Shown here in pieces: positions 1,348 through 62,590 of a stretch of DNA of 64,000 bases. The notes under the pieces are model-generated. The model was given only the letters and a program-made list of their open reading frames with translations, did no database searches and was not told the origin of the DNA. The DNA lies in the NCBI GenBank assembly GCA_009746045.1, contig RPFO01000065.1, forward strand, positions 4,477,785 to 4,541,784, given 5' to 3'. The stretch is from Mesostigma viride. Lineage: Eukaryota; Streptophyta; Mesostigmatophyceae; Mesostigmatales; Mesostigmataceae. Within the stretch, counting starts at the first letter, position 1, and each line of letters starts with the position of its first letter. The translations under genes were made by a program, and so were the position numbers.

Positions 1348-1380
1348 GGTATACCAAAGAGACAACCAGCGCTGGTATAC
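1348..1380 (-). mobile_element. 19-nt insertion of the RT element's 3' terminus, 7-bp target duplication
   Basis: GGTATAC at 1348-1354 and again at 1374-1380 flanks CAAAGAGACAACCAGCGCT. On the minus strand the last 18 nt of the insert equal the extreme 3' end of the element. Taking away 26 bases (insert plus one repeat) makes the RT frame continuous across this point. Confidence 0.8.
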
Positions 1381-1765
1381 GTTTCTCTGCTGCTGTCTTA
1401 GAACGGCTAAGGGCGGCAAGGCGTAGGCGTACTTGGGCTGAGTCTATGACGATCCAACTACCAGCGCATTCATACCCGGCATTCGACAGCACCTCCACCC
1501 ATAATGCATTGGCTTCGGGGAGAAGAGCATTCAAAGCATGGCAGATGAGTTTCGAGAGAGGCATCAGTGGGGCTGAATGCGACGCAGCAATGGTGCGCAA
1601 AGCAACAGGAGTTTTGTGCAGCTTAAGAGTGAGATACAGATATGGGAACGTAGTGGTGGTGGCGCGTCGCTGCCGCTTAAGGAATGCCCGAGCAAAAATG
1701 TTTTGGCTGTGCAGAAAAGCCCGATGAGCAGCAGTGATACTGGCGGTGGACTGTGCACGCTGAAC

Positions 1766-2049
1766 ATAGGTAGACACTCCCGTCACCACTAGACACTCCC
1801 GGCCAGTTAGGCTAGAAACACACGCCCTGATCAAGCATGCTGTTTCCGGCCCCACCGTCTAGGTCATCTAGTCGCTCCACACGTAAGCCAGCCATAATTT
1901 CAATGCACAAGGATACACATTTCCATCACCATTCATCTTCATCATCCTGAACGACTCGAAAACGCGGAAAAGATAACGGCAGGCTCGAGCTACCATGGTC
2001 CGGATTCTCCCGATTTCTGGCCTGCGCTGGTTGTCTCTTTGATAGGTAG
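1766..2049 (+). mobile_element. 268-nt 5'-truncated copy of the RT element's 3' end, antisense inside the RT gene
   Basis: ATAGGTAG at 1766-1773 and 2042-2049 flanks the insert 1774-2041. The insert runs through the repeat A sequence and ends with GGTTGTCTCTTTG, so its sense strand is plus while the interrupted RT is on minus. At its 5' junction ACACTCCCG is repeated, consistent with a template jump. Insert plus duplication is 276 bases, so the frame resumes on the far side. Confidence 0.85.
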
Positions 2050-2176
2050 GGCTGGACGCCAACTCGTGTTGCAAAGTAGCAAGGTAGTGCTTCTTGCATA
2101 TGAAAGCAAAGTTGTTGGCACTCTTGTCAACACACGTGATGATAAAGTCCTGCTTGAAGTGGTCAAGAAGTGACAT

Positions 2177-4627
2177 CTTTACCTAGGTGACTTAAAATTT
2201 CTGTGTAACTATTTTTTAATAAAAAACCAAGTTTTTTGGCGGGAAACGAGAAACGAGAAACGAGAAAAATGCACCTCGAGCCAATCGTAGAAAATAAGTA
2301 GTTGGGGTCGGGGTCGGGGTCGGGGTAAAATTGGCTCTTTTTTAGCAAATTAGCAAATTAGTGGAGGCGGGGGCCGAGATTAATTAAGAGGTACCTTGAA
2401 ATTAAATAAGAGGCATGCCTCTATCGAGATATATGTATGGAGGCGAGTTTCTATTGGCGTTAATTTGTAGTATTGTACGACATCTGTCAAGGGTGACGGA
2501 AAGTACTGAAATCGCGGAAGTGGCGCGGAGACGTTTGTACTTTCTAGATCGATCGCGCATTCGACGGTTAAAAGGCAGAGGTGCGGTCGACTGGCAGTAC
2601 TGTACGACGGTGTTGGACGGAATTTCCGGTCAGCGATGCGGTCTCAAGCTTTGCATCTCACGTTGTCGGATCTTAGCCCATGCGTCGCGCTATGCTGTGG
2701 CGAACTTATTCTCCGCCGTCAGATTGCACCGTCGATGAGCGTCGATGCTCGTCGATGAACCCAACGCAAGCCATGTGACGAAAAGAAGTAAAAATTGGTG
2801 CGGCGGCACTTGGTCCCGAGTTCGGTAAGTTACGGAACTTGCAGCCCGGCGACTCCGCGTACAGCAGTCCGCAGGTAGTCCGCCGGCGTTAATTTGTTAA
2901 TTTGTTAACTGGGGACAACCTAGTCAGTAAAAAAGAAGTAAAACAGTAAATTTAGGACTGAGATTTGGGGTTTCGTAGAAAATTTGCCCCGATCGGAAGG
3001 TTTGTCAAAAAAATTCCCTCAAAATTTATTCAAATACTACGTGAAAAGATCTTTCTTGGACATATTTTTGCGATTTTTTTGGATTTGGTATGAGCGGCTA
3101 AATGTACGGTCAAAGAACAGGTGGTAAGGGTACTTTTCCACGTGAAACGTGTGTTCCGGAAATGCACGACCTAGCCATGGCGGCTTGCGCCCATGCATGC
3201 AGTTTACGTTTTCCGACGATATAGCTGGCCAAACTCAGGAAATAGTTTTTATATATCATAGAGATGATACAAGTCAATTTTCAGCTCGCGGAAATGCGAT
3301 TTACTAGGTGTCGGCACCGTTCTTGCTGGAAAAAGCTGCGATCAGGCAGGCCGACGGAATTGATTACTACAACTGCTTTCCGGCGCAAGTCAAAGGGTTT
3401 ATAGGTTTCTTTCTACTTGTTATCATGCATGGTCATAGAATTGACTTAGTGGCAGTATAGATTTGATGATTTCGACCACTCTGTCACTTCATGGTGTGTG
3501 TGCCTCAAAGTTCCACTTTTGCGGGCACCGCCTGGGCCAAGGTAACGCCAGCCATGCAAGGTAAAGCCGGAATATCGTTGTCTCATCATTTCTTAATGTT
3601 CTTACATGAGTTTAAGCTTGCGAGGTGTTGCCAGTTTCGAGTCTTGATGCTCTTTCTTGACCGTTGCCTGCCCCTCTCCAAAACCCCCTTTTTAGATGAT
3701 GTTGCCAGGCATTTGCCTTGCCCTGGTGTAGTTGTGCAGGTTTTTAGGCGCTGTATGGGTTTAAACACCTTCATAGATGTTAGTTGTTCTTTTGCTACGT
3801 TCATACTGCATAATTGTGTGGCCATGGGCCTCGTCAAGGGTGCTTTCAAGCTTATATGGGTGAGTGAAAGATCTTGGTGGTAAACCACTGTCATCATGTG
3901 CCAGCAAGTATGTTGGCCATGCCATGGCAAGGCAAAACAGTTTCATCCATGTCCATTCTTGTTAGAGACACTTGAAATATGCTTAACCTGCCCAATACAT
4001 TCGTGGTTAACACACAAAAAAAACCCTTTCGTGGGTAGGTATCCAAACCCATTCCCTACGTGCTTGCATAGGCTCTCACACATTATAAGGTATAATATTG
4101 CAATATGATGATGCAAGCATGTTGTCCTATTATGCTGGAAGGGAAATGAGTTGATTGGCATGGTTGGTGGCCACGGTGGTGTGTAGTACGACCTCACTCC
4201 CATGCTAGCATTTTGTTACCAAGGCCCAGTCCTATTTATAGGACTGGCAGTGTTTTGCATGTTTCAGGCAGTGCCAGTGGCCGAATTGAGTCCAGTTTTT
4301 TTCCACAGTTCAAGAACTCTAATATCTACACGCCTATGATTTTTAATAGTGAATATGGATTTTATTGGATTTTACACACTCGTGCTTCCACAGAAAATTC
4401 CAAAATCGCGAGTAAGGGTTGAGAGTCATGTATAATTTTACATGATTTGGTCAACATATGATTTTTTAAGCACATGCCCAAGCATTAGCATGATATTGAG
4501 TGCTATGATGCATATCAAATATATGGGGTACCCCCCTACCCTTACCGCCACATGATCTCAAAGATGGTATACTCAGTCCTATTTTTAGGACTGAGTTTCT
4601 ACAGGGGACGTGTTAATCAATTTAGTG
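2177..4627. other. Stretch with no recognisable gene
   Basis: Short tandem motifs occur at 2242-2270 (GAAAC/GAG units) and 2303-2326 (GGGGTC units). A 107-codon open frame at 2415-2738 and a 130-codon one at 3491-3883 match nothing I know. Part of the second (about 3590-3780) is a diverged copy of minus-strand sequence at 49800-50000, which argues for an old repeat rather than a gene. Confidence 0.4.
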
Positions 4628-4836
4628 CAAATGTGTAGCTTTGTGCATTGAAATTATGGCTGGCTTACGTGTAGAGCGACTAGATGACCTAGACGGTGGG
4701 GCCGGAAACAGCTTGCTTGATCAGGGCGTGTGTTTTGAGCCTAACTGGCTGGGAGTGTCTAGTGGTGAGCACCATTGCTGTGATCGCTCTCCCACCGGCA
4801 CCATTCACGAGGAAATACCCGCAAATGGAGAACCAC
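4628..4836 (-). repeat. Repeat A fragment (3' end region of the RT element)
   Basis: It is colinear with 1-150 and with the segment upstream of it seen at 5800-5902, with scattered substitutions. It carries no coding part of the RT. The extreme terminus is missing, so it has either decayed or recombined. Confidence 0.7.
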
Positions 4837-4839
4837 AGA

Positions 4840-4924
4840 GATATGTTCTTAAATTCTGGTTTGGCACGCCGCAAAGGTGAAAACCATTTGCGTTCAGTGC
4901 CGGTCCGCGGATATGTTCTTAAAT
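4840..4924. mobile_element. 55-nt insertion flanked by a 15-bp direct repeat
   Basis: GATATGTTCTTAAAT is present at 4840-4854 and 4910-4924, with 55 unrelated bases (4855-4909) between. It has the form of a short insertion with target-site duplication. No second copy of the insert was found in this window, so its source is unknown. Confidence 0.5.
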
Positions 4925-5624
4925 AATTAAGGTCAAAAAATTAAGGTATTGTGCACATGTAATCGTGTGACAATGTTGGGAAGAAATCTTATATTCCCAT
5001 GACATGAAGTGAGACTAGAGAAATCTTTTACTAGTACAGCAATAAAATACAGTAGATATCTTATTCATATATGGTCTCTTTGATATATGAAAAAGCAAAA
5101 ATACATACCTGGCTCTAGAACCATCTGTAAAATATTTTGTTACGAATTTTGAGACTGAAACTGTTGCACGGGTACCAGAGATCTATCAATGATCTCATCA
5201 GATTCACCGAGAAACATCTTACGAAACACCTTTGGCAGCCACGCGAAAGCGCATCACGATCTTTATCAGGCCCTCCCATGGGCCCCCAACTGTTACCAGT
5301 CAAGCCATGACACAGCCAACTTACAGATTCTGCTGCAGCGATTGAAGGATGACACTACCAACTTCAGCTGCATGGTTCACCTGTGCGGTTGACGCATCAT
5401 CCGGGCGCCGAAGTCCTTTCTACCGAGGGTTTCCGTAGGTGAGGGTCCGGGCGCGAATTTTTTGGCGCCGAAAAAATTCGCGGTACCCGTCCGTACCGTG
5501 AAAAAGTGGTGCACGGTGCGCGCACCCCTATAGTAGCGGAGCTGGCCATGGCGACGGCTTTCAGGCAAAACTAGACAAATATCAAGTAACGTGCGTGTTT
5601 GCAACTTGCCCGTTGAAACTCTAC
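4925..5624. other. Stretch with no recognisable gene
   Basis: AT-rich sequence to about 5200, then mixed composition. No frame, RNA gene or family repeat was recognised. Confidence 0.4.
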
Positions 5625-5981
5625 GGCGGAGCCAATTTTCGGAAGAACCTCACCCTTATGCTTGCAAATTCGGGACAAATTCGGTGGATGTATGTATCAA
5701 AGAGACAACCAGCGCAGGCCAGAAATCGGGAGAATCCGGACCATGGTAGCTCGAGCCTGCCGTTATCTTTTCCGCGTTGTCGAGTCGTTCAGGATGATGA
5801 AGATGAATGGTGATGGAAATGTGTATCCTTGTGCATGGAAATTATGGCTGGCTTACGTGTGGAGCGACTAGATGACCTAGACGGTGGGGCCGGAAACAGC
5901 ATCACTATACTTTTCGTCCGAGGGTGGTAAAAAGCATCCGAGGCGTAAATTACGAGGTGGTAATTTACTCCGCTTTTACTC

Positions 5982-6798: not shown

Positions 6799-6811
6799 GG
6801 TATACATTCGC

Positions 6812-7060
6812 GCTTGGATCTTTCTCGTAAGTTACGAATTAGATCCGAGGTAAGATCCGACGTCGTAATGTACGAGGTAGTAATTTACGAGGTAGTAATT
6901 TACGAGGTAGTAATGTACGAGGTAGTAAGGTACGAGGTAGTAATGTACGAGGTAGTAATGTACGAGGTAGTAATTTACGAGGTAGTAAGGTACGAGGTAG
7001 TAATTTGCGACGTAGTAATCTACGAGTTGGTAATTTACGATCCCGGTACTCGGTCCCGTA
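6812..7060 (+). repeat. Subterminal array of 16-bp units (TACGAGGTAGTAATTT)
   Basis: About a dozen units of TACGAGGTAGTAA plus TTT, TG or GG follow each other. The same words occur near the right end of the CACTA-like element, so these are probably its transposase-binding subterminal repeats, expanded here. Confidence 0.75.
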
Positions 7061-11562: not shown

Positions 11563-12770
11563 CATTGCCATACAAGAAGAAGCTCTCGATCCGAGGTATA
11601 GACTACCTCGGGTATCATCATCGTAATTGCTAGCATCGAGATCATTCATACCTACCGACGATGGCCAGCTGCAAAAGAAAAATGTCGACCAACAGACAGG
11701 ACCTATCGCCGGGAACCCTCAAGGCAATAAGGGCGAGACAGGCTTTCACCGTTAAGTAAAGTTGTCCACATCGTGCTAAGGAATTTGTGCTAATCTATGA
11801 GTACCTATATGGACACTTTGTCGCATTTTTTACATGGCAAATAAGCGATGTATGTGTCATGTAGGCTGCCATAATTGGTGCATGCATGCATGGGCCAGCA
11901 ATGATGGTCAGAGGTACATTGTGCCTATGAGATAACCATCGATTTGTTGATCAGCAAGTGATTCATTACGTGAGACAACAATATGTTTGGGGGCTAAGCT
12001 TCTTACATTGGTCACATGGCCCGCCATAATTGTTTTCTGATGTGTTTAAGGTTAGGGCTCTGTTCATGACTGAACGTCATGAACGCGCTCTATTCATGGC
12101 ATTGATTAATTGATTTTAGTTAGTCTCATGTCCATGTTGGGGGACCGGGATCTCTGAATTCCCCAAAGAAGATATAGTGGAAGTCACCCCAAGACGTCAA
12201 TATCCGTCAAGACGTCAATAACTACAAGTATGTCCACAGCTCAGCTAGTAGTCTAAAATATGGGCCTCGAGCTAATCTTGCACGCAAGCAATGCCTATCA
12301 TCAAGGATTAATTAATGCCTATCAACAAGGAGACAATCATGCTTGTTAAATTTCCTAGGACCCACAACTGGGGGGTCGTAGTCTTTGACAATGTCCGCCT
12401 GGGCAACGCTACTAATCCTACATATCCGAGGTCCCATGTCTGAATAAGAGGGGTTGAGCGGATGACGCCAACAGTGTCTGTGCTCTGCATGTCAGCTAAA
12501 ATCATATCGCGGAGACAAACATATGGCGGTATGTCCAATGTTGGCCACTGCGTCGCCTAACAGGTTCGTTCTTACATGGTCGGCAAGGGCCTGACCATGT
12601 AAGAAGATATCTCCCTGGCTGGCCAGTCCACAAGGAACCAGCAGGGACCTCATCTGAATCAACCTGATTTATTAACTAACTACTTAATTCATTTATTTAA
12701 CTCATGCCCCCATTAGGGAGTCAAGGAGCATTAGTTAACCCCGATTCATTCATTAATTAATTATTAAACA
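11563..12770. other. Stretch with no recognisable gene
   Basis: No family repeat or convincing frame. A 76-codon minus-strand frame at 12308-12538 has no recognisable motif. A degraded LINE 3' hairpin (CCCCCATTAGGGAGTCAAGG) lies near 12705-12735. Confidence 0.35.
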
Positions 12771-13036
12771 CGTGCTCCCGTTGGGGAGTCACGGAGCACC
12801 GAAGTGCTTTTGATCCCTGTGTGTGCACAACATGAGAAAGGGCAGAGACCCCCAGTCTCCTTCATGCCTAAGGCATGCCACAGCTGCATTCGGGAACGCT
12901 AGCTAAACGGACACGCTAACGATCCGGCAATCTGTGGGTGCAATAAGACCCATGTGAGCATGGCATAACACTAGGAGCGTGGGCAAGTAATCTCATCATA
13001 GCCAGGACGTAGCATGGCTGTACTAGGACTATACCC
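12771..13036 (-). repeat. LINE 3'-terminal fragment (repeat C)
   Basis: On the minus strand it ends GACTCCCCAACGGGAGCACG followed by a TTAA-rich tail, as do 51168-51430, 54163-54300 and 62980-63240. It is the 3' UTR and tail of the LINE family whose coding part is seen at 29.5-32.7 kb and 51-59 kb. Confidence 0.65.
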
Positions 13037-13040
13037 CGAT

Positions 13041-13830
13041 CAATGGATGGATGGATGGATGGATGGATGGATGGATGGATGGATGGATGGATGGATGGAT
13101 GGATGGATGGATGGATGGATGGATGGATGGATGGATGGATGGATGGATGGATGGATGGATGGATGGATGGATGGATGGATGGATGGATGGATGGATGGAT
13201 GGATGGATGGATGGATGGATGGATGGATGGATGGATGGATGGATGGATGGATGGATGGATGGATGGATGGATGGATGGATGGATGGATGGATGGATGGAT
13301 GGATGGATGGATGGATGGATGGATGGATGGATGGATGGATGGATGGATGGATGGATGGATGGATGGATGGATGGATGGATGGATGGATGGATGGATGGAT
13401 GGATGGATGGATGGATGGATGGATGGATGGATGGATGGATGGATGGATGGATGGATGGATGGATGGATGGATGGATGGATGGATGGATGGATGGATGGAT
13501 GGATGGATGGATGGATGGATGGATGGATGGATGGATGGATGGATGGATGGATGGATGGATGGATGGATGGATGGATGGATGGATGGATGGATGGATGGAT
13601 GGATGGATGGATGGATGGATGGATGGATGGATGGATGGATGGATGGATGGATGGATGGATGGATGGATGGATGGATGGATGGATGGATGGATGGATGGAT
13701 GGATGGATGGATGGATGGATGGATGGATGGATGGATGGATGGATGGATGGATGGATGGATGGATGGATGGATGGATGGATGGATGGATGGATGGATGGAT
13801 GGATGAATGAATGGATGGATGGATGGATGG
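13041..13830 (+). repeat. (GGAT)n array, about 790 bp
   Basis: A nearly perfect tetranucleotide run, with one GAATGAAT variant near 13803. All six frames encode repeated WMDG or HPSI and are not genes. Confidence 0.97.
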
Positions 13831-14074
13831 ATGTCAGGCTTGTCTTACATGATGCAGTGGAACTTTGGTGCTGGAGGGTTAATTGTGGCCCGGTCTGGTT
13901 TAGCTTCAGTGCTCTCATGGCGGCCTTCATTTGTAATTATTTGAATGCATGCCCATTGGGCCATGCATAGTGTATATTTTTTACGCATGCACGCCCATTA
14001 TGTATCGCTGGGTCCATCCCATCAATGCTTGTTTATTGCCAGGTCTGGTGTAAGTAAGTTAGTGCTATCTAGTC

Positions 14075-17061: not shown

Positions 17062-17093
17062 CTTTTTACTACCCTCGGACGAAAAGTATAGTG

Positions 17094-18063
17094 ATGGATG
17101 GATGGATGGATGGATGGATGGATGGATGGATGGATGGATGGATGGATGGATGGATGGATGGATGGATGGATGGATGGATGGATGGATGGATGGATGGATG
17201 GATGGATGGATGGATGGATGGATGGATGGATGGATGGATGGATGGATGGATGGATGGATGGATGGATGGATGGATGGATGGATGGATGGATGGATGGATG
17301 GATGGATGGATGGATGGATGGATGGATGGATGGATGGATGGATGGATGGATGGATGGATGGATGGATGGATGGATGGATGGATGGATGGATGGATGGATG
17401 GATGGATGGATGGATGGATGGATGGATGGATGGATGGATGGATGGATGGATGGATGGATGGATGGATGGATGGATGGATGGATGGATGGATGGATGGATG
17501 GATGGATGGATGGATGGATGGATGGATGGATGGATGGATGGATGGATGGATGGATGGATGGATGGATGGATGGATGGATGGATGGATGGATGGATGGATG
17601 GATGGATGGATGGATGGATGGATGGATGGATGGATGGATGGATGGATGGATGGATGGATGGATGGATGGATGGATGGATGGATGGATGGATGGATGGATG
17701 GATGGATGGATGGATGGATGGATGGATGGATGGATGGATGGATGGATGGATGGATGGATGGATGGATGGATGGATGGATGGATGGATGGATGGATGGATG
17801 GATGGATGGATGGATGGATGGATGGATGGATGGATGGATGGATGGATGGATGGATGGATGGATGGATGGATGGATGGATGGATGGATGGATGGATGGATG
17901 GATGGATGGATGGATGGATGGATGGATGGATGGATGGATGGATGGATGGATGGATGGATGGATGGATGGATGGATGGATGGATGGATGGATGGATGGATG
18001 GATGGATGGATGGATGGATGGATGGATGGATGGATGGATGGATGGATGGATGGATGGATGGAT
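17094..18063 (+). repeat. (GGAT)n array, about 970 bp
   Basis: Perfect tetranucleotide repeat that starts directly at the GTATAGTG terminus of copy 1 and runs into copy 2. Its open frames are artefacts. Confidence 0.97.
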
Positions 18064-18183
18064 GTCAGGCTTGTCTTACATGATGCAGTGGAACTTTGGT
18101 GCTGGAGGGTTAATTGTGGCCCGGTCTGGTTTAGCTTCAGTGCTCTCATGTCGGCCTTCATTTGTAATTATTTGAATGCATGC

Positions 18184-18527
18184 CCATTGGGCCATTAATT
18201 AATTAATAGACACGTGACTGCGTCACGTGAGCAGAAGTCCTCAGTGGGAGGGGAACATGGGATGGAATGGATGGTATAAGCTATCTAGGTCCTAGCTACA
18301 GGGGTGTGGGCACCGCGGCCCGAATCGCTATGAATGCCATACTTGGTCACACGCGGAGCCCCCACAGGCTTGGGGGTGGTCTCCTTCATCACTACTTGCC
18401 ATCTATCCTTGCGCACCATCTGCCTCCATATTACAGACAAACCAGGAGGCTGCCCGGGGGTGAGCCCGTCACGTCTAGTGTAGCACATGTCCATGCCGAG
18501 TCTATCACGAAAAGTCCATTGGGCCAT
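18184..18527 (-). mobile_element. 320-nt 5'-truncated LINE insertion, 12-bp target duplication
   Basis: CCATTGGGCCAT at 18184-18195 and 18516-18527 flanks the insert; the empty site is at 13953-13975 in copy 1. On the minus strand it encodes the LINE C-terminus (GLSVIWRQMVRKDRWQVVMK, compare GLSVIWKKMMDKAKWAQVIE at the end of the 32.7-kb LINE) and finishes with a TTAATTAAT tail next to the duplication. Confidence 0.9.
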
Positions 18528-21592: not shown

Positions 21593-21868
21593 AGTTGTAC
21601 TGTGTAGTTCTACTCAGTACCCTAAATCCTAGTGTGGACGCCGCGCCGTCAGCATCTTTGCTGCGACGGAATCTTGTGAACGGCATCTAGCGTCGCGCCG
21701 AGGAATCTCGGACTATGTTAAGCAAGTCCAATGCACGATGATAAGTTAATGAGAAATAAATGCAACGTGACGGCGGACGAGGTAGCCGCCTGCGTGTTCC
21801 TCTGCGTAGCACCAAAGCACTTGCCTCTCGACGAAGAGCGTTGGTATCCAAAACACATTATTGCAACT
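21593..21868 (+). repeat. 5' LTR, 276 bp
   Basis: By eye it is identical over its whole length to 27202-27477. Promoter and transcript start are expected inside but cannot be placed. The sequence after it (TGTACTCAAGAAAGAAC) is where a primer site would lie; I do not recognise the matching tRNA. Confidence 0.95.
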
Positions 21869-21895
21869 TGTACTCAAGAAAGAACATTTTCAAAA

Positions 21896-23122
21896 ATGTT
21901 CCGGACGGGCCTGACAACGCCGTCGTCGAAAATCAAACACAAAATCAAGCTGCCGAATCTCGGAGCCCTGGGCTCGAAGGGCGTGGGCACACTTCGCAAG
22001 CCCACCGCGAGCGAGATTCAGAGGAATCTGAACGAAGAATTTGCCAAGCAGGATAGCCCCGCAGTGGTGGACACTGCGGCGGAGGAAACTGCACCTGCAG
22101 CTGCCCGTGCAGCGGAGCTGCCAAGTGGATCACAGGCGGCTGGGCTGCGCACTGCAAGCCTAGACCGTGCTGCCCGCATCCTCTGGATGAAGGAGCAAAA
22201 GGTGATCGAGGAGCGAATTCCTGCGCCGATTCCAGCGGCTCCTGAGCCATCAGAGAAGGTGAAAGAACAGTTTATTTTGAACCTGCGCAAGTGGCACAGT
22301 GATGTCCAAGACATGGTAGCCAAGCCTATCGAATTGCTGAGGCGCAATCGGCTGGCCACCGAGGGTTACAAGGTCGTATCCGACCTGATCGAGATAGCCT
22401 ACAAGGAGGACCGGAGCTGGGAAGAATTCATGGCTAGCCTTGAGAAGAATCTCCTGAAGACGGGGCTAATGCGCCTCGTCGCAGATGCAGTGAGTATTCT
22501 AAAGTTTGATCTGAATCGGAAGGTAGACATCAGCCAGGCAACGCTCGACTACGAGCAGAAACTGGCGTTGTCGTCCTGCTCGCCAGGTGACGCCTTCTCG
22601 GTGGTAATGTTTCTGGCAAAGGGCATCATGTCTGGTAGCCTGTCTGAGTCCGCCCTCCAGGGCATGTCGGGAACACTGACTGTCGACAAGCTAGCAAATA
22701 GGGCAGAGGCTTTCCAGATTATTCGCAATTCTGTTGCTGTGCCGGCTGCCGCCAAGGCATTGGTGGCAGCGGGCATTTCTGACCCTCTTTCCTCTGCTGC
22801 AGCGCCCATTGCAAGAATTCATGGTGCAGGTGAAGAGAAGTGTGGCCGATGCCAGGGCACCGGGCATGTGTGGTCGGATTGCCCAGCCAACACGAAGGCT
22901 GGTCCGAATGTGCGGCTGTGTGGCGCCTGCCACCAGCCAGGGCACTTCGCCAAGGACTGCAAGCACACACGCGGTCCGCAGGGCAAGAAGCGCCCGCCCA
23001 AGCCGGCTGGCAACATGCGGCCCAAGAAGGCCAAGTGGAACAAATGGCAGAGGCAGGGGAACACCCAGGCCACACCTGCTAACACTCATGTGCCTGTCCC
23101 TGCTCCCTCTGCAGCAAACTAG
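21896..23122 (+). CDS. gag: Gag polyprotein of the copia-type element
   Basis: A 408-residue frame from the first ATG after the 5' LTR; an earlier in-frame ATG (21731) lies inside the LTR and is unlikely to be used. Two C-x2-C-x4-H-x4-C zinc knuckles, CGRCQGTGHVWSDC (about residue 316) and CGACHQPGHFAKDC (about 342), bind RNA in Gag proteins. They are followed by a Lys/Arg/Pro-rich tail. The protein would form the particle in which reverse transcription occurs. The frame ends TAG; pol overlaps it by about 40 nt in the -1 frame. Confidence 0.9.
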   Translation: MFRTGLTTPSSKIKHKIKLPNLGALGSKGVGTLRKPTASEIQRNLNEEFAKQDSPAVVDTAAEETAPAAARAAELPSGSQAAGLRTASLDRAARILWMKEQKVIEERIPAPIPAAPEPSEKVKEQFILNLRKWHSDVQDMVAKPIELLRRNRLATEGYKVVSDLIEIAYKEDRSWEEFMASLEKNLLKTGLMRLVADAVSILKFDLNRKVDISQATLDYEQKLALSSCSPGDAFSVVMFLAKGIMSGSLSESALQGMSGTLTVDKLANRAEAFQIIRNSVAVPAAAKALVAAGISDPLSSAAAPIARIHGAGEEKCGRCQGTGHVWSDCPANTKAGPNVRLCGACHQPGHFAKDCKHTRGPQGKKRPPKPAGNMRPKKAKWNKWQRQGNTQATPANTHVPVPAPSAAN

Positions 23123-26100
23123 ATAGCCCATGTTGGGACGATGATGTGTTTACCACTAATCTAGCTGCATGTGATGAGCTGGGTAGTTGTGTAGACAACA
23201 ATTCTGCTGCGTGCATTGCTGCTGTGTTGCGTAGCGGCTTGTGCACAGACATTGTTACGCCTGCGGCAACGCGGGACCATGAACCCCCACCGACCAGTAA
23301 TGCTGGTACTATGCAAGCTGGACTCATGCACGTCGACCGTGACGATGGGGGGTCACTGGCCACACCAGGTGAAGTCCTTTCCTTGACTGCTGTTGCTGCA
23401 CGCTTGCATCATGTGTTAGGCCATGGGACCCACGCTATCCGTTTTGCACGGGCACTGGCACCGGGGACTAAGTTGGCTAGCACGGTGCAGTCCATGTACA
23501 GTGGTTGTCACCAGTGTCAGTCCACTGCGCCTAAGCGTGCACGTAGGCATGTCAAACACCCACCCCTTGAGCGTGGTCACTTGGTGTGTGACATTTTGTT
23601 CCAGGACCAGGCTGTCTACTTGCTGGGAATAGACAGATTTTCCCATTTTGTTTCAGTTGTCCCACTCAAGTCACAGCATGTTGGGGACCTCCTTGAGGGG
23701 ATAGACCTGTTGGACTCCATGTTTAGCATGGTTACAGGGATGCAGTTTGATCAGCAATTCAAGTGGGCTGCCAAGGAACCTGGATATGAGTTTGTGGGAA
23801 CAGTGGGGCGTGAGGACCACGAGTCACAAGGGATAGCGGAGAGAGCGGTACAGGAGTTTAAGCTGCTTGCTACCCGACGTGGGGACCACATGCCACACAG
23901 TGAATTCTCTAGTCGGCTCTTGTGGGCACTTGCCGTGTGTCGAAGTTTGAACAACCGTGTGCTGATGTCGACACAGGATGGGGTGTTGGTGACTGCCGAG
24001 GGTTTGCAGTTTGGCCAATATCACGATGTGGTGGTGGATGTGTACAAAGACCACCTAGCATCCCGTTTTCAGCGCCTTGTCCAGTTGGATAGGCGACGTG
24101 GGGCTTATGAGCCCAGTGTGGGGCATGATGTTTGGCTGCACAAGGAAGGTGCCCTGGGTAAGCGTGGCAGGTGGCTTGGTCCAGCCAAGGTAATTTCTTG
24201 TGATGCTGCTATGCGTAAATGCGTGGTGGACTATGAGGGCACTGAGGTCACTATGGCTTGGAATAGGGTGAAGCCCTACATGCGTGATGTGGAGGCTTGG
24301 TCTAGAGTGTTGGAGTTGTACTCCGACCCTAGCAGGCTCTCTAGCACTGTGACTCCTCCTTCCTCTTCGGCTCCTGTATGTGACAATGCAGGGGACAGTG
24401 GTACTAGCGCGCCTAGTGGGGAAGCTGAGTTGGAGTTGCAGAGTGGGGACTATGATGATGATGTTGCTGTGGTAGCACACCACTTACACACCCTAGGGGT
24501 AGAACAGGCAGAGAGCTTGCGCGACAGCTTGCCTAACCTCCCCCCTTCTGGCGTTGGTCGGGAGGATCCCTGCGTTGGTAGGGATAGTACTCAGGGCAGT
24601 TCCTGTCTTGAGCGCCCAAGCCGTAAGGGCTTTCTCACCCTTGCTGTAGAAAGGTTGATGCGTAAACCTCCTACAGACGCTTTGCAAAATCCCGTCAAGG
24701 CAGCGATGGTATCCGCATTTGGTACCCTGGGTGATCAGCATGGTATGAGGATGTTGGTAGATACGCAGGCGAGAACCTCCATTGTCTCATCCCTGCACTA
24801 CAATCCTGTGAGACCCTCAGTGCACTGGGAGTGTGTGACTGATTTTGCTGGCTCAACGAAGTTCCCTGTCCTTGGTGTCATTGATGTCAATGTGATGGGG
24901 GTGCTAGTTGAGTTTTGCGTGGTGGAAGGGTATAGTGGTCCACCAATCCTTGGTCAGAACTTCCTTGTACGGGAGGATGTCTGGGTCAACTCCACCTGCT
25001 TGCGGCGGGAGGGGCATGCTGATCTGCCTCTTGAGGACTATGCTGTCATGTCTGACTGCCAACTTGTTGCTGTCATAGGCAACATTCGGCACGTGAACTA
25101 TGCCCGTGAGAGTGATGTGCCGTTGGTAACTCAGTTGTTGCTTCCTAAACGTCCTAGCTTGGCTAGTCTCGGCATTGGACGTCATGATGTTGCTACCCAA
25201 AGCCCTATCTCTTACCATGATGCTGACGTGGAGTGTCAAACGGAGGAGGGGCTAGATGGGTGGACTAAGGCCATTATTGCGTCAGGTGAAAGGTGGCTTG
25301 CATACCGTGCTGTTGAACCGGTTGATGAAGTGCCCAGTGGTGCTCGCCTTTTGCGCCACAAGTGGACTTTGGAGCGTAAGTTGGTGCCTGACACAACAAC
25401 TAGGGTGCCTTTTGTTCGCCCGGTGGTCCTAGAATTTTCAGGTACTAGTGATCTTCCGGACAATGCCATCTCAGCACCTGGGTTGATCAAGGATAATTGG
25501 CGCATGGTCCTGTCCTTCTACCTAGGCCAGCTCAACAAGGGACTTCCGTATGAGTCAGCCCTCATGGATTTCAGCAAAGCTTTTTTGAATGGTGATCCCA
25601 AGCTCGCTGAGAATGTGTGGGCTGGCACGACCCGCTTGTATGTGCGCTGTCCTCCCTTGTGGCAGCCTATCATGGGCAAGAAGTTTCTCCGTCTCTTGAA
25701 GGGTGTTGACGGTACTGTGACAGGTCCTCGGATTTGGCGCCTTTGCCTCGAGCGTCTTTTGCTTGATGTGATGCACATGTACTATCATGACCTGGACCCC
25801 TCTCTGTTTGTTGGCTCATGGGAGGGGCAGCCAGTTTTTGTGTTCATTCATGTCGATGATGTGGACTGCATGGGCCCCACACCGTGGCTAGACTGGTTTT
25901 GTGCCACTGTTGCTCAGCACTTCCCGGTCGGCAAGGTCATTCGCCGCGTCTTGGACAAGTATGTCAAGTTCTGTGGCGTCGACACTATGCTCACCAAGGA
26001 TGCCTCTGGCAGATATGTGATGAAGCTGCGTGCAGCGGGGGACTATGTTCAGGAGCTCATCACTCAGCTTTCATCCCTTACTAGTCAGTATATTCAGCCT

Positions 26101-26784
26101 GCTGAGTGTGGTTCTCTGCGGGGTAAGCTGAACTGGCTGGTCTCTACCGTCTCCCCTGACTTGGCGGTGCTTGCTCGGTTGCCAGATGACTTGATGTGCT
26201 CTCTTTCCCGCAATGTCATGTGTAAGTACATTTCTGCCTCCCCTGGGTTGGTCTTACATGGGGTGGACTATGAGCGGCCTATTCACTTGTCCGCGTATTG
26301 TGATAGCAGTTTGGATAGTGCTAATATCTCTAAGCTCCGTGGGCGCTGTGCCGCTGTGGTGCTTTTGAGTAATTCTGCCACTGTCCATGTCCCTGAATCT
26401 TCCCCTTCACCCTTTGCGTGGTTTTCTCGCTTACATCGGCGGGTGTATGTGGGTAGTGACACTGCAGAGGCTCGTGCCTTCTGCGAGACTGCTGAGGAGT
26501 TGATGTATTTCCGTGCGGTTCTTCGGTGGTGTTTGAAGTTTTGCCGTGTCATTCCACAGGTTGATACCACCATCTTCACGGATTCGCAGTCGCTGATTGA
26601 CTTTTTGGCTGATCCTTATGCGCGCACGCGCAAGCTCGACTTCCTTCGTGCCAAAGAATATAGTGACGCTGTTTCGCTGTACCATGTTCGCGACAATGAT
26701 AACATTTCAGATGCTTTGACCAAGCTGTATGCCAAGGCTAGGCCTCAGTATGACAAGCTTCGTCTAGTTCAGGCGACACTTTAA
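23083..26784 (+). CDS. pol: Pol polyprotein: integrase, protease motif, RT, RNase H
   Basis: The frame is open from 23083; it has no ATG near its start (GTG at 23146), so production by -1 frameshift from gag is likely. Counting from 23146: zinc-binding HHVLGH...CHQC (88-124); integrase D149, D202, E232 (CDI, FDQQF, GIAERAV); a retropepsin-like MLVDTQARTSIVSS at about 539 with ILGQNFL near 600; RT with ALMDFSKAFLNGD (805) and HVDDVDC (903); RNase H with AYCDSS (1050) and FTDSQSL (1144). RT and RNase H at the C-terminus after integrase make it Ty1/copia. The protease motif lies after integrase, unlike the usual gag-PR-INT-RT order; no DTG/DSG motif is seen between gag and integrase. Confidence 0.9.
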   Translation, partial: HSCACPCSLCSKLDSPCWDDDVFTTNLAACDELGSCVDNNSAACIAAVLRSGLCTDIVTPAATRDHEPPPTSNAGTMQAGLMHVDRDDGGSLATPGEVLSLTAVAARLHHVLGHGTHAIRFARALAPGTKLASTVQSMYSGCHQCQSTAPKRARRHVKHPPLERGHLVCDILFQDQAVYLLGIDRFSHFVSVVPLKSQHVGDLLEGIDLLDSMFSMVTGMQFDQQFKWAAKEPGYEFVGTVGREDHESQGIAERAVQEFKLLATRRGDHMPHSEFSSRLLWALAVCRSLNNRVLMSTQDGVLVTAEGLQFGQYHDVVVDVYKDHLASRFQRLVQLDRRRGAYEPSVGHDVWLHKEGALGKRGRWLGPAKVISCDAAMRKCVVDYEGTEVTMAWNRVKPYMRDVEAWSRVLELYSDPSRLSSTVTPPSSSAPVCDNAGDSGTSAPSGEAELELQSGDYDDDVAVVAHHLHTLGVEQAESLRDSLPNLPPSGVGREDPCVGRDSTQGSSCLERPSRKGFLTLAVERLMRKPPTDALQNPVKAAMVSAFGTLGDQHGMRMLVDTQARTSIVSSLHYNPVRPSVHWECVTDFAGSTKFPVLGVIDVNVMGVLVEFCVVEGYSGPPILGQNFLVREDVWVNSTCLRREGHADLPLEDYAVMSDCQLVAVIGNIRHVNYARESDVPLVTQLLLPKRPSLASLGIGRHDVATQSPISYHDADVECQTEEGLDGWTKAIIASGERWLAYRAVEPVDEVPSGARLLRHKWTLERKLVPDTTTRVPFVRPVVLEFSGTSDLPDNAISAPGLIKDNWRMVLSFYLGQLNKGLPYESALMDFSKAFLNGDPKLAENVWAGTTRLYVRCPPLWQPIMGKKFLRLLKGVDGTVTGPRIWRLCLERLLLDVMHMYYHDLDPSLFVGSWEGQPVFVFIHVDDVDCMGPTPWLDWFCATVAQHFPVGKVIRRVLDKYVKFCGVDTMLTKDASGRYVMKLRAAGDYVQELITQLSSLTSQYIQPAECGSLRGKLNWLVSTVSPDLAVLARLPDDLMCSLSRNVMCKYISASPGLVLHGVDYERPIHLSAYCDSSLDSANISKLRGRCAAVVLLSNSATVHVPESSPSPFAWFSRLHRRVYVGSDTAEARAFCETAEELMYFRAVLRWCLKFCRVIPQVDTTIFTDSQSLIDFLADPYARTRKLDFLRAKEYSDAVSLYHVRDNDNISDALTKLYAKARPQYDKLRLVQATL

Positions 26785-27477: not shown

Positions 27478-28185
27478 AAGACCCGTCGCGGTAATTTACT
27501 CCGTTGGTAATGTACTACCAAAGATGTGCAGTCGTAACGTTACTTTTACTTACGGCTAGTAAAATTACTACCTATCATCCTACGTAGTAATGATTACGGC
27601 GTTGGATCTCACGCCTCGGATCTAGGTAGTAAGATAAGACCTCGTAATTTACGCCTCGGATGCTTTTTACCACCCTCGGACGAAAAGTATAGTGATGCTT
27701 GATCAGGGCGTGTGTTTCTAGCCTAACTGGCCGGGAGTGTCTAGTGGTGAGCACCATTGCTGCGATCGCTCTCCCACCATTTACGAGGAAATACCCGCAA
27801 ATGGAAAACCACTGAAAAGGTCTAGCTAGTCAGTCATCACGTTAGCCATGCCATGATTCCAAACGTCCAAGAACTGCACACGGTGCAAAGGCAAAAAGCC
27901 GGAGGACAGCACTTTCAAATGTGCGGCGGGAACCAAAAGCCCGCGGATGCCAGAAAACATCGTGTTGCGGCAGCGACGCGACGATGTGGACAACGAATCC
28001 AGTGCCAAGCTCGGAACGGCCGCAAAGGAGATCTGGCATCACAGGGTTCAGATGTGCGGAGATACTATGCGATCCAGCCGGTCCACGACCTGTTTGTAGA
28101 GCTTGTGCCAAGGGGCAGCACCGAACAGATGTGGGTGACGTTGCAAAAAACAGCGGACTTGACGGAGCATAATGGCTCGTATGTA

Positions 28186-29177
28186 TGGATGGATGGATGG
28201 ATGGATTGACGGATTTTCATCCCCTATTCCTATGTTTTCTCACGTGTACGGCCTTATAAGCTTCGCCAATTCTGGCGAACCTAACGGTTCTTCCGAAAAT
28301 TGGCTCCGCCAGATAACAAGCGGAATGCAGAGAAATTGCGAGAATCTTGAAGGCGATGAGTTTATGATATTATTTCATCGCTAAGTTTGTGCGCTTTGCA
28401 ATGTCGATAATTTTATTGATGACCATCGCCGCGGGGGTCCAATCCGAAATTTTCGTCGCGAGGAATAAATAAGAATGCTCGCTGGCGGCCGTGATTGTCA
28501 GGTTTTATGGGCTTTACTTAGCGTCAAGGATGCGTTTGCATTGTCAATAGAGAATCCTAAAGAAATTCGCCGGGGTTCTGCAAGATTTCCGTCATTTTCG
28601 GTAAGACACTGTCCAGGCTCGCCGGATGCGCGTCTCATCCTTCCATGGAAGGTTGGTCTTTCTTGCGCCACTGGGCATATGACACTGCCGGTAATGGTAC
28701 GATCCCGTGCTTAGCGTCCCCCTATGACTGTTTCGCTTCTTTTAATGGTTGTCAACGCAAGTTTTCGCCTTCTATCCGCGCAGTTAGCGCCAGGTAGCAT
28801 GCCATTCCGTGATGCGCATCGCCAGATTCCTGGCAGCTTTCAGTGATTTTATCTAGGTTGCATCGCTGGGACGTGTCAAATCATGAGCCGTGGCATGTTG
28901 GCAAGTTGTAAGGGATTTGTCGAGTGGTTTCCTGGAAGGAGTTTGGTAAAAACACTGAGTTTTGTATGAATATTGACGCAGCCTTTCTTAGCAGTGGTTT
29001 CAGTGTGCTTAGAGGCTCACAAGGTTGAGGTTGTTTCTTAGCAAACAATCGCGCTGAAAAGAAAAGCTATAGTGGGCGTTCTGAGGGGCATATTGCATGG
29101 GTGGAACTGCATGTAGGTAGGGGATACCGTTGTTTTGTTGGCCTCTCTCCCACTGAATTATGAGATAGCCCTGTCAT
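28186..29177. other. Stretch with no recognisable gene
   Basis: The first 125 bases are the right part of the outer TIR element. Beyond 28310 there is no recognisable family repeat; a 79-codon frame at 28475-28714 has no motif. Confidence 0.35.
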
Positions 29178-32500: not shown

Positions 32501-32746
32501 GCAGGACTGCGACCAGCCCAGCCTGGCCGGCACCTCCTGACGTGGGCTGGGCCCAGTGATGTTAGACGCCGCAAGGCCCGCACCTTCAAAGAACAGCTAG
32601 TAGAGGACATGGGGGGCCTAGGCCTCTCCGTGATTTGGAAGAAGATGATGGACAAGGCCAAGTGGGCCCAGGTCATAGAGGACAACGAGCCCCCCCCAGT
32701 GGGGAAGCGCCCGCGTGTGCAATCCCGCGGGAGGCACGCTAGATAG
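29538..32746 (+). pseudogene. Non-LTR retrotransposon (LINE) endonuclease and reverse transcriptase
   Basis: The endonuclease begins ILGIASFNVRTLP (29540-29590), shifts frame near 29600-29640, runs through LGVQEHRR, HTLTVIVGYAPHAG and FLVMLLDANATLP, then shifts again at a T8 run near 30216 and ends with STVESDHRLVLARI. The long frame to 32746 holds the RT: KGSPADPGNYRGVCI, ETQHGFRSGRNT, LVDFIKAFDSVFW, GVWQGCVLSPYLF and IIYADDTTLF, then the YGAETWTL and RRLQLVGHLART signatures. An APE-type endonuclease upstream of RT is typical of RTE/Jockey-like LINEs; the clade is not assigned. Two frameshifts make it non-functional unless they are assembly errors at homopolymers. No ORF1 is seen 5' of it; a related ORF1 is at 51.6-53.0 kb. 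Confidence 0.85.
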
Positions 32747-42326: not shown

Positions 42327-42685
42327 AAGCCTTGATTTTTCCGGGTAAATGGGTACTTTTTATTAACCAATAAGGTGATCGTTAGGAGGTACCGCGTATC
42401 GACCAACTGGTTACCCACTGAGGGTAAGACACTGTATAGGCCAAGGCCTTGATTTCCGGGTAAATGGGTATTTTTTATTAACCAATAGGAATATCGTTAG
42501 GAATATCTTAGCCTTGATAGTTGTCTCTTTGATCTTAGCCTTGATTTCGGGAAATGGGTATATTTTATTAGCCCGCAATTATGGACCAAAGAGGTGAGAG
42601 GGGAAATGAGTATCAGCGAATCCTAATTAAGGTGGGCACACACACGTGTGGCGGTGACAGGTGAAAGGCTAATCTTAGCCTTGAT
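42327..42685 (-). mobile_element. Stack of insertions at one ATCAAGGC target
   Basis: Five copies of GCCTTGAT (plus strand) at about 42330, 42443, 42511, 42538 and 42676 separate four inserts. Three are minus-strand repeat E copies ending ATTTACCCGGAAA or a variant next to the target; one (42519-42531) is the 13-nt end of the RT element on the plus strand, flanked by 14-bp repeats. The spacing means the duplicated target was hit again and again. Confidence 0.75.
42505..42545 (+). mobile_element. 13-nt insertion of the RT element's 3' terminus, 14-bp target duplication
   Basis: ATCTTAGCCTTGAT at 42505-42518 and 42532-42545 flanks AGTTGTCTCTTTG. The last 12 nt are the exact 3' end of the RT element. 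Confidence 0.7.
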
Positions 42686-48345: not shown

Positions 48346-48932
48346 ATGAATCCTATTGGTGTCAAGTATTTAGATCAAGGAGACAAGCAGCGCAGTGTTA
48401 AGTATTTAGATTTTTGTATGTGAAGGTATTCAAATGGCTGCTAGTTTTTCGACACAGAGTTGATAAGCTCCTTCTGGTAGAATCTCAACAATTCTAAAGT
48501 TCTGTGCTCCTACTTATTTTATGAATTCGACCCCACGTGCTGGGCCCGCATTAAATTCAATTAAAATATAACATGACTCCGTGGGGAGATCATGTAGCAC
48601 GTATTCCCTTGCTTTATTTAGTTATGCTGTGCCCATGCAGAGAGCTACTCTCTGCTGAGAAGCCATGCCATTGCCATTGTTTAGCCATGATGATCTTCCA
48701 CCCCATGCCAGACCCCTAGCTCTGATAAAACATGGTGGTGCAGGTGCACTTGGTGCACCTGGAGCAGGTGTAGTTTACATCCTACCCTTGCGGGACGTAG
48801 CCCAGAATGTATTAAAGGCCATATGCCCCTTCTCAGGGATATGTGCCACATGTACTCCCGACGGAATTGAATTGAATTGTCCAGAACATAACTCCGTTGG
48901 GAGTATATGTAGCACATTAAAAAAATTAAATT
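48346..48932. repeat. 3' flank of the fucosyltransferase, with repeat D fragment
   Basis: 48346-48560 shows nothing recognisable. From 48590 the minus strand matches repeat D (33580-34015), with CTCCGTTGGGAGTATATGTA ends on both sides of 48850-48915. Confidence 0.55.
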
Positions 48933-57780: not shown

Positions 57781-57792
57781 TATATATCCTGA

Positions 57793-58640: not shown

Positions 58641-59246
58641 GTTCCTCCCGTTAGGCGTTTCCATTGGTCTTATCGTAGTATAGAGCTTTGACATGGCTCT
58701 GTACATAGGTTTATAGCTGGGCGTTTGCTTTGGTTTGAGTGATTTCACTCTGCTGTAAGTAATTATATTTTTAATATATATCCTGTAGTAGGATATAGCA
58801 TTTGTAGGACATCTTGCTCGCACCAGCCGGGTCGACACCGCCCTTGGTCTAGCTGGCCGGCCCCCAGCGGCTTGGCCAACTAGGGCGGCATATCTTGACC
58901 TGGCCTGGCCCCAAGGACTCTCCTAGGAAGCTACTAGGTAAACCTGCCATGAACTACACCCAGATGTTGCTGGCCGACCCAGTGGTCCCAGCTCAGTTTG
59001 AACACTGCATCCACTCCCTCTCCCTTCTCTGGACTGCCATGCAGAACAAGACGAGGTGGCAGAATTAGATTGTCCAGGCTCACACGCCATGCAGCCCCTG
59101 TGGGCAAGCCACCTCCCCCCATGCAAGAGGAAGGGGCGTTTTGCTGACTAGTGTAGTTAGGATTTTCTAGACTAGATAGCTTCGAGTTAGGTTAGTTCGA
59201 TTACGCTGCTTCCTTCCACGTACCCCCACCCATGCATTAATTATAG

Positions 59247-59645
59247 GAACATAACTCCGTTGGGAGTATATGTAGCACATAGCCCAGAGAAGGCGCATAT
59301 GGCCATCATACATTCTAAGCTACTTCCTGCAAGGGTACGTGGGAATGTAAACGACCCTTGCTCTAGGTGCACCAGGGCACTTGCAGCCCCATGATGTTCA
59401 AGCTATGCCCAGCTAAGGGGGAGCCTGTCATGGGGGGGAAGATCAGCATAGCTATACAAAAGGTAGGGCATGGCGTCTCAGCAGAGAGTTACTCCCTGCA
59501 TGGGCACGGCATACTTAAATAAAGCTAGGCATCATCTGGAGGGTGGCTCATCATAGGCACACATGTACATGACTAAAAAGGCTAGGCCTCAGCTGGTATA
59601 GTGCCTGTAGTAGGCGGGCATGTACAAGGCCACTGTCTAACTATT
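59247..59645 (+). repeat. Repeat D
   Basis: Colinear with the minus strand of 33580-33990: ACATAACTCCGTTGGGAGTA at the left, ATGTACATG words at the right. Confidence 0.7.
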
Positions 59646-59719
59646 CTACACTACTGCTACTGTATTCCCCTAGGCTGGGGCTTCTGGGCCGGGTCGCTGG
59701 GGCCGCGGTGGTCGAGGGG

Positions 59720-61229
59720 GTCGCGTGCCAGGGCTTGTGGCCGACGTAGATGGCCGCCCAAGAGGTACCTGAGGGGGCAAGGGTGCTGCCCCTCAAGATG
59801 GTGCTGTCGCATAATAAGGTGAAGGGGGGTGTGGAAATTTGCTATGTCAGGCCTGTGTCACAAGAGTTCTCGGGCACGAGTGAGCTTGCGAGGGAGGAAC
59901 TGTACACGCCTGGTCTTGCTTGGGATAGCTTCCGGGTACTTAGTATGATCCTCTTAGGTTTCCTGGATGAGGGCAGGGACTATGCAATTGTGGCTCGGTT
60001 GATATCAAGCGGGCGTTCCCCAACTCGAGTGAGGAGGTGTTTGATGAGGTACGGGGTGAGACATCGCCACTGGTGGTGGTGGCTCCGCCTTTCTGGCGGG
60101 AAGTGGTGATGGCCAGGTTTATGGGGCTACGCAAGGCAATAGAGGGTCTCCAGAGCGCGTCGATAGTGTGGCGGACTACGCTGGTACGCAAGCTCAGCGA
60201 GATAGTCTCCTTTGAGGTGTCCCCATTTGATCCATCGCTGTTTGTCACTCACACACCCTCTGGACCTATGTTTGTTCAGCTCCATGGGGATGACCTGCGT
60301 GTGATTGCGCCTCGTGCTGACCTACATCAGTTCTAATAATGCGGCGGTTGCGGAGCGGTTCCCAGTGGGTGAGTTACAGCTGTTGGAGCCAGGTAAGCCA
60401 CGAGTGTTCTGCGGTGTCCTGCAAACCATGAGTGTGGTGCAGGGCAAGTATCAGTTGCACCTGAGTGTGCCCAGTGAGTATTGCGAGAAGCTGGTGATGG
60501 GAGTGGATGAGTGGTGTGACAAGGGATTGTGGAGCCGGTTGCGTGGCAAGCTTGGTTGGATGGCGACGGTGTGCGCGCCTGACCTACTTGTGCTCAGCAG
60601 GACTGTAGATGAGGTGCTTGCTCCCATCCCTCCCTCTGACAGTGGTGAAGCAGTATGTCCGCTCGAGCCCTGGTGTTGTGTTGTCCGGGCTGAGCTTATC
60701 CCGACCAGTTACTCTGCACTGTTTCGCCGACACCGCTGGTGAGGGTCGGGAGGTCACCCGGGTACGAGCACGCATGGGTGGTCTGTCTGTCTTGGCTAAC
60801 TCTGATGGCAATGCATCCTTGTGTGCGTGGTACTCTCGCTTGTGCCGGAGGGTGGCTGCTGGCTCGGATACTAACGAGTGTCGTGGTGTATGCGAATGTA
60901 TCAAGAATTCGATGTATCTCGAACAGTTTCTGCGCTGGTTGGGTGGGTGGTTGAGTGTGCATTTGGTGCTGACCACCACTATTCACACCGACAGCCAGCC
61001 GTTGGTGAGTTTCATTCTGAACGCGCTGTCCCGGACGCGCGATCTTAACTTCCTTCTTTTGAAGGAGTTATCTTACGCTGTGAGCGTGCTCCACATGCCT
61101 GGGAAGCTCAACCCCGCTGACGCTGTGACCAAGCTGTTCTCGGCGGCGCGTGAGCAGTACGGGATTCTGCGGATGGTCATGGCTGGTGCCCTGGGCAACT
61201 TGCGGGGACTGCTGAGTGGCACATTGTGA
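59720..61229 (+). pseudogene. Decayed copia-type pol (RT and RNase H)
   Basis: Blocks in three frames match the end of the 23.1-26.8 kb pol: PEGARVLPLKMVLSHNK, YVRPVSQEFSGTSELA, FDPSLFVTHTPSGPMFVQLH with GDD in place of VDD, WSRLRGKLGWMATVCAPDLL, then RNase H blocks LHCFADTAG, THTDSQPLVS-like IHTDSQPLVSFI and LNPADAVTKLFSAAREQYG to a stop at 61229. At least two frameshifts. No LTRs were found around it. It is a related but distinct family, old by comparison. Confidence 0.8.
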
Positions 61230-62590
61230 CCCTGTGGCAAAATCTTTCCAGCAGTTGACATTTGGACCTATCTGTTTGGTGGGCTGGGTATGATCCCTTA
61301 ACGAGCCCTTTAACTGAAAAGGGGGACCCGGTACGGCTGGGTTAACTTGGTGGGGCTGCATGTGTCCTTGGTGGGTGTGCGGTTTTGATGATATGTGTGG
61401 ATGTGCCGTGACTCAAGGGCGATCGTAATGATCAGTCCTGTGTTCTAGCTTGCTCACAGGACTTACGGCAGACACTGACAGCTCAACCAGGGCATGAATG
61501 GGCGCCAAGGAAGGGGTAGAGACTCCTCTAGTACATAATGCTCTGGATGATGTTGTGCAGTATGGGGAGTGTTTGCTGGTAGCTCTTGAGTGAGAATATA
61601 TGGTGTTGATTTCTGGCCTGCGCTGGTTGTCTCTTTGATATGGTGTTGATGGATGGGTGACTGCTCGAAAAGAAAATGGGCTGGTGTTGTGATATTGCAG
61701 ATCTCGCAGTCACTACTTGAATTGGTATGGAATTTGGTACGCCGATATTTGGGCTATTGCGTGTCTGAGCGTTGTCGGAATTTCAGGGGTGCGCAATCTG
61801 ACTTAATTACTTCTTGCGTTTGTCAATATTGTCCGGCTTATGTGGTCAAATCTCGGTGATGCTATTTTCGGTGGTGACGGCTTATGCGTTTGTGGTCCTG
61901 TAACGGTTGTGACTGTTGGTTGGTTGGTACTCGGCCGGTGGTTTAATGTTAAATTGTGGGCGGCGCTGAATGGATCAGTGTAGCGCCGCAGGTCCTGTCA
62001 CTACTGCTTGGCGTGCTAGGATGACAAAAGCCGACAAAAGTGGTGCGAACGTAACATTGAGGGTATTCCACTGTTAATGGCGTACGTGAGCTACAAAGAG
62101 GTCGGGGGCTTGTGCTGAGCGCGTCAGATTATTGAGTTTTCCGTCAAGAAATTTTCTATTCAATATCCATTTAATACAACACTCCGAGCGTCAGATACTT
62201 GGAAATTTCGTTACGTTCGTATCGAGAGTAGATTTCTGACAACTTTCCTCGTTCGGACAGAACCACAGTGAATTTCAGCATCCGTCCGGTACCAAAGCAT
62301 GGACCTATAGCAGGAATTCTGTCAGACATCTCGGAAGTAGCAATTTTTAGTATCGAGCGCACTTGCGCTAGTGTTCAGTCTGAATTTGGCCTCCGTCAGG
62401 TCAGCAAGGGGCGTAGGAATACACTGAACTGAACAAAACGGTGGACTGTACTAAGAAATTCGTACTCAATTTTCGTCATCCAAATCGGAGGGAAATATTC
62501 GACCAAGGACTAGAGATTTCATCGAATTTTCAGAACTGGCCAATTGATGCACTAGGAACTCAATTTCTGAGAAAATTCTCAAAACCCCTC
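61230..62590. other. Stretch with no recognisable gene
   Basis: Apart from the 27-nt insertion at 61611-61637 nothing was recognised. Confidence 0.35.
61598..61650 (+). mobile_element. 27-nt insertion of the RT element's 3' terminus, 13-bp target duplication
   Basis: ATATGGTGTTGAT at 61598-61610 and 61638-61650 flanks 61611-61637, which is exactly the last 27 bases of the RT element (TTCTGGCC...GGTTGTCTCTTTG). The element also has GAT just upstream, so three bases of microhomology are possible at the 5' junction. Confidence 0.85.

Follow-up and report, generated by a model that had tools for sequence, protein, structure and literature searches.

The 64-kb stretch of the Mesostigma viride genome analysed here (the window; 64 kb of a 439.9-Mb assembly) contains seven sites at which the 3′ end of a Penelope-like element (PLE) lies between two copies of a short target sequence. 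The inserts share one 3′ end and differ in where they begin, and the shortest retains only 9 nt of the element. Such sites were very probably made by target-primed reverse transcription of the element, often stopping within 40 nt. The end of the element was defined by the copy at 1774-2041. The sites, together with the copy carrying a reverse transcriptase (RT) frame into which two of them fall, are as follows.

Site A: 1348..1380, minus strand; GTATACC at 1348-1354 and 1374-1380, enclosing the last 18 nt of the element and one additional A (1355-1373).
Site B: 1766..2049, plus strand; 8-bp duplication ATAGGTAG around a 268-nt 3′ part of the element (1774-2041).
Site E: 5067..5089, plus strand; duplication ATATATG around the last 9 nt, GTCTCTTTG.
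Site F, 3′ part: 5690..5902, minus strand; GTATGTAT at 5690-5697, element 3′ end at 5698-5902.
Site F, 5′ part: 27695..28186, minus strand; element at 27695-28178, second GTATGTAT (8 bp) at 28179-28186.
Site C: 42505..42545, plus strand; 14-bp duplication ATCTTAGCCTTGAT around one extra A and 12 nt.
Site G: 48364..48411, minus strand; 12-bp duplication AAGTATTTAGAT around a 24-nt insert with a diverged end.
Site D: 61598..61650, plus strand; 13-bp duplication ATATGGTGTTGAT around 27 nt, or 30 nt with a 3-nt GAT overlap.
RT-frame copy of the PLE: 1..2172, minus strand; 5′-truncated at 2172, extending past the window start, and broken by sites A and B.

A preliminary description of this DNA had reported three very short sites (A, C and D, with 18, 12 and 27 nt and duplications of 7, 14 and 13 bp) and a 268-nt version with an 8-bp duplication at 1766-2049. 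Coordinates, lengths and duplications were all confirmed in the window sequence, and sites E (9 nt), F (~687 nt) and G (24 nt, diverged) are additional to that description. Sites A and B both interrupt another copy of the element, A within its RT frame. At the 5′ end of the site B copy (1771-1801), two copies of TAGACACTCCCG are separated by 7 nt, and the last bases of the target are TAG, which looks like a backward slip in copying at this junction. The copy at site F measures ~687 nt overall, and self-comparison of the window places a 21.8-kb inverted-repeat element (5903-27694) between its two parts; the idea that F has no duplication was rejected, since GTATGTAT stands at both ends once the inverted-repeat element is skipped. 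Site G, directly behind an open reading frame (ORF) ending at 48345, was recovered by an unbiased direct-repeat scan of the window, and agrees with the element end at 18 of the last 20 positions of its insert, representing a diverged subfamily. Two sites should be read with caution: the insert at E is of 9 nt only and its surroundings are AT-rich, and a third ATCTTAGCCTTGAT lies close to site C, at 42672.

All six exact occurrences of GTCTCTTTG in the window are element 3′ ends with duplications of 7-14 bp, and the inserts at these sites are 9, 12, 18, 27-30, 268 and ~687 nt long. Directly adjoining duplications of at least 7 bp are present at five of the six exact-suffix matches (at least 9 nt); the exception is the minus-strand 3′ end at 5698. 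Because GTATGTAT is found at both ends of copy F, all six exact matches are therefore insertions with duplicated flanks.

Duplications of this kind are rare by chance. Outside low-complexity DNA, ~0.001 of random positions have a correctly placed duplication of at least 7 bp. Among 1741 dispersed 9-mers with 7761 occurrences in the window, 110 occurrences (1.4%) have a duplication of at least 7 bp within 60 nt; GTCTCTTTG is the sole 9-mer with four flanked occurrences (of its six), and the runners-up have two. When the spacers of direct repeats were scored against the element end, five sites were obtained, while the same scan with 400 shuffled ends gave no site in 366, one in 31 and two in 3. 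None of the 35 window places matching just 6-8 nt of the end has a duplication of at least 6 bp. For matches of 4-5 nt, 7 of 505 have a duplication of at least 7 bp, exceeding the 0.1% background; no low-complexity filter was applied to these matches and most are near-tandem, and they were excluded from the tally of sites.

The analysis was extended to the genome using the 12-nt end, GTTGTCTCTTTG, which occurs 3012 times (1529 + 1483), compared with 26 occurrences (14 + 12) of the reversed word. The sample consisted of the first 100 places listed, all on contig C1, with 2 kb around each. After removal of four that duplicate another junction, 96 distinct junctions remained. The element retains 12-40 nt at 48 junctions, 41-258 nt at 22 and at least 259 nt at 26, where the floor of 12 nt is imposed by the search word. 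An ungapped comparison with L102, a full-length copy, gave at most 40 nt for 47 of 94 external junctions; an indel halts this match at 233 nt, so that it is uninformative for longer copies. By extrapolation, ~1,500 of the 3012 places would be insertions of 12-40 nt, provided that contig C1 is typical.

The preliminary description had called for a genome-wide test of the flanking duplications. This was run on the 96-junction sample by exact matching; the left copy could lie up to 5 nt inside or up to 8 nt outside the 5′ boundary, and the control was a permutation of right flanks among loci instead of shuffled words. Duplications of at least 5, 6, 7, 8 and 10 bp were found at 31, 22, 12, 8 and 5 of the 48 short sites, far above the permuted means of 2.82, 0.74, 0.11, 0.02 and 0. 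Copies of intermediate length behave in the same way, with a duplication of at least 6 bp in 9 of 22 (permuted, 0.33). As the excess is alike in the two classes (22/48 and 9/22), short and longer copies look alike.

Two further observations were made in the sampled loci. At L017 and L087, micro-insertions of unequal length occupy one position of one repeat family (CTATACAA), a coincidence that suggests a site preference. A short insertion of the same PLE family (L102:5979-6016; locus L079, 38 nt) lies ~1 kb behind the full-length copy.

Empty sites were identified for both insertions in the window RT copy. Its alignment to L102 shows an 8-bp overlap at break B and a 7-bp overlap at break A: the targets of A and B are single in L102 and doubled around the insert in the window, and L102 thus provides exact empty sites. 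The predicted protein P0001, to which the window RT frame is 99% identical, also reads uninterrupted across site A. Elsewhere, empty paralogues were sought in the genomic DNA fetched for the sample, allowing at most one gap and requiring at least 80% identity around the junction. They were found for 7 of 33 joined micro-site queries, derived from 31 distinct sites whose duplications measure at least 5 bp. The best of them, L101, matches window 31251-31487 at 98.3%, within an RVT_1 ORF (29945-32746) that we read as belonging to a LINE-like element (LINE, long interspersed nuclear element).

The preliminary description spoke simply of an RT element. An RT is indeed present, and from its sequence and modelled structure the element is more exactly a PLE with a putative N-terminal GIY-YIG-like endonuclease region. 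The loci L069, L070, L077 and L088 run on beyond the element end into identical DNA; among the three of these that were extended, L102 and L103 have the entire unit and L104 lacks the end of the RT. L102 carries an intact ORF of 1018 amino acids (1394-4450) flanked by terminal repeats, which are in partial tandem (1-458 of L102 again at 4553-5013, and 80-307 of L103 again at 4632-4859). In Foldseek comparisons, the RT structure model is nearest to telomerase, which occupies ranks 1-13 with TM-scores of 0.41-0.57. The endonuclease-like region precedes the RT in the L102 ORF, and its VIY..YVG..RFQEH segment aligns with the Pfam GIY-YIG region of the relative P0143 (32% over 952 amino acids), which itself falls just under the Pfam cut-off. 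Among the relatives listed, 15 of 120 bear PF01541; among nine relatives that were scanned, seven of them preselected for a listed PF01541, GIY-YIG lies N-terminally in eight. Viral contigs gave one 18-nt match (L001) and no encoded relative. An N-terminal endonuclease is the arrangement of the clades Naiad and Chlamys. It was also considered whether the element 3′ end might be an ORF start, with ACCATGG 47 nt before the end, as in PLEs whose repeat enters the ORF; this was rejected because the L102 ORF begins at 1394, ~940 nt past the repeat end at 454.

The DNA into which the insertions have gone shows a common motif. At the 94 external junctions, the four bases after the end are A in 92, T in 79, A in 77 and T in 45, and the element's own continuation past this point is ATATTAGA. 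Target and continuation agree at three or more bases (ATA) at 62 of 94 junctions, compared with ~1.2% of random positions. In the window, AT begins the target of the long copies B and F, and again that of four of the five micro-sites; the target motif is common to micro and long copies. From these sequences we infer pairing of the nicked target with AUA(U) within the element RNA, and priming at that point, while noting that an ATA preference of the endonuclease alone would give a similar pattern.

The following sequence of events may be proposed. The element's endonuclease would nick AT-rich DNA, the seven window sites being mostly RAAY/ATA, and the 3′ end of the nicked strand would pair over 3-4 bases with the AUA(U) that lies just past the terminal repeat in the element RNA. 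Reverse transcription would begin at the paired AUA(U), and with the start fixed there, every copy would end in ...GTTGTCTCTTTG. Synthesis would frequently halt within 40 nt, the second strand would be cut some 5-16 bp off, and end joining would attach the short complementary DNA by way of microhomology, an additional A or filler, leaving the target duplicated. The target-primed reverse transcription put forward in the preliminary description fits the constant 3′ end, the variable 5′ ends and the variable length of the duplications; beyond this, we infer the order of the nicks, the pairing of the primer, and that the inserts are short because synthesis stops early.

Several observations weigh against this interpretation. 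The preliminary description had set a mark of 7 bp for the duplications, which a quarter of the short sites reach (12/48) and the others do not, and 17 of the 48 lack a duplication of even 5 bp. The sample is limited to contig C1 and to ends with an intact 12-nt terminus. In the genomic DNA fetched, there is no empty paralogue for window sites C, D, E and G, nor for any of 12 mid-length sites. Pfam reports neither a GIY-YIG nor an RT family in the L102 ORF at E values up to 1, and there is no Rfam hammerhead ribozyme match in the 268 nt searched, of a terminal repeat of at least 458 nt; such a ribozyme occurs in the terminal repeats of many PLEs, though not of all. The 5′ ends at 9, 12, 18, 20, 27 and 30 nt each coincide with a paired base of a predicted hairpin, and this possible stalling structure folds no better than shuffles (z 0.41). 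For the Penelope/Poseidon element of Anolis (PAc), a PLE whose activity was studied in vitro, reverse transcription is described in the available text as starting at a site not homologous to the cut DNA (PMC11167929). Finally, short RNA templates would yield identical DNA and fit as well as early release of the enzyme.

This last point leads to the alternative that we consider a real, though lesser, possibility: the same machinery acted on a short template, making complete copies of 3′ fragments left by degradation or processing of the element RNA rather than stopping early. The short lengths are clustered, with 29 of 48 at 12-18 nt and 17 of 48 at 24-38 nt and only two between (both 20 nt), and no sampled length lies between 50 and 73 nt; discrete RNA ends could explain this clustering. 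However, the 5′ junctions differ from one another in single-base steps and bear microhomology, an additional A or filler. It is very unlikely that the short sites are long copies whose 5′ parts were later deleted. Deletions are common in repeat-rich genomes, and such an origin would accommodate the 17 short sites lacking a duplication of at least 5 bp; nevertheless, where a left copy of the duplication is found it is at the truncated 5′ boundary or at most 8 nt from it, and duplications of at least 6 bp are as frequent in short as in mid-length sites. Chance words, or filler from double-strand-break repair without the element's enzyme, could be read into the filler bases or missing duplications of some sites, but are hardly credible in view of the 3012 versus 26 occurrences, the permuted-flank control, the single fixed 3′ end and orientation, and the shared ATA target.

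Extreme 5′ truncation is expected for elements that insert in this way, and the unusual feature appears to be the proportion, as half of the sampled junctions keep at most 40 nt. LINEs such as L1 and R2 show target-primed reverse transcription, 5′ truncation and target duplications as here, and differ in RT lineage and endonuclease; we know of no LINE family with half of its insertions under 40 nt. PLEs of the Naiad and Chlamys type resemble this element in a telomerase-like RT fold, an N-terminal GIY-YIG-like region, partial-tandem terminal repeats and variable target duplications, whereas in the present element about half of the sampled insertions keep at most 40 nt. Both are named as PLE classes in the available part of PMC10941475.

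According to the available text on Anolis PAc, reverse transcription initiates internally and the enzyme cuts both strands (PMC11167929). The start inside the RNA and the AT-rich targets are shared with the present element (PMC11167929). With both strands cut, as by the Anolis enzyme, end joining could seal an aborted event and preserve the duplication. By the same part of that account, the two differ in that the target here matches 3-4 bases of the element's continuation, and in that the PAc endonuclease is C-terminal whereas the endonuclease-like region here is N-terminal (PMC11167929). Penelope elements of bdelloid rotifers are described, in the portion of PMC3846280 available, as having terminal repeats that may carry a short tail, target duplications of 8-10 bp, and one microhomology junction without a duplication. 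They are thus alike in terminal repeats, target duplications and microhomology joining, and differ in that their repeat enters the ORF (PMC3846280), whereas the ORF here starts only after the ~940 nt that follow the repeat. No description of PLE insertions of 9-40 nt was found in the open-licence literature searched.

Self-comparison of the window identified two further copies of the element.

4626..4839, minus strand: diverged partial copy of the element terminal repeat.
63526..63841, minus strand: diverged partial copy of the element 3′ region.

The 21.8-kb stretch at 5903-27694 that splits copy F is bounded by inverted repeats (CACTATACTTTTCGTCCGAGG...) and has a 2-bp AT duplication. It contains a third terminal-repeat copy, ending at 17093, as well as long ATGG arrays and two ORFs (21731-26784), which from their sequence look copia-like; one ORF was scanned and had no Pfam match. 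The two tetranucleotide arrays, at 13014-13970 and 17091-18198, contain mirror open frames (MDGW)n, and words ~4.8 kb apart recur near both. At 12290-12341, a diverged word GATTGTCTCCTTG (near 12326) adjoins an 11-bp direct repeat around AATTAATCCTTGA, and the two may be micro-insertions from a related subfamily, one nested in the other.

Taken jointly, it seems probable that about half of the element's events are micro-insertions of at most 40 nt (~1,500 carrying the exact 12-nt end, should C1 be representative, in addition to shorter or diverged ones), with internal priming guided by 3-4 bp of pairing between target and RNA. The element would then account for a sizeable number of small indels with duplications, most of them unannotated, and would offer a natural record of the first stalls of a telomerase-like RT. 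Insertions of 10-40 nt lie under the length limit of most repeat finders and would be counted among small indels or short duplications. Should a single family leave hundreds or thousands of them, small-indel spectra, frameshifts in gene models and rates of retrotransposition would be misjudged in genomes of this kind. A search with an exact terminal word is applicable to any genome with such elements, and the length distribution that it yields would provide a genome-scale read-out of early failure of reverse transcription and of primer pairing, in a class of retroelements whose mechanism is barely known.

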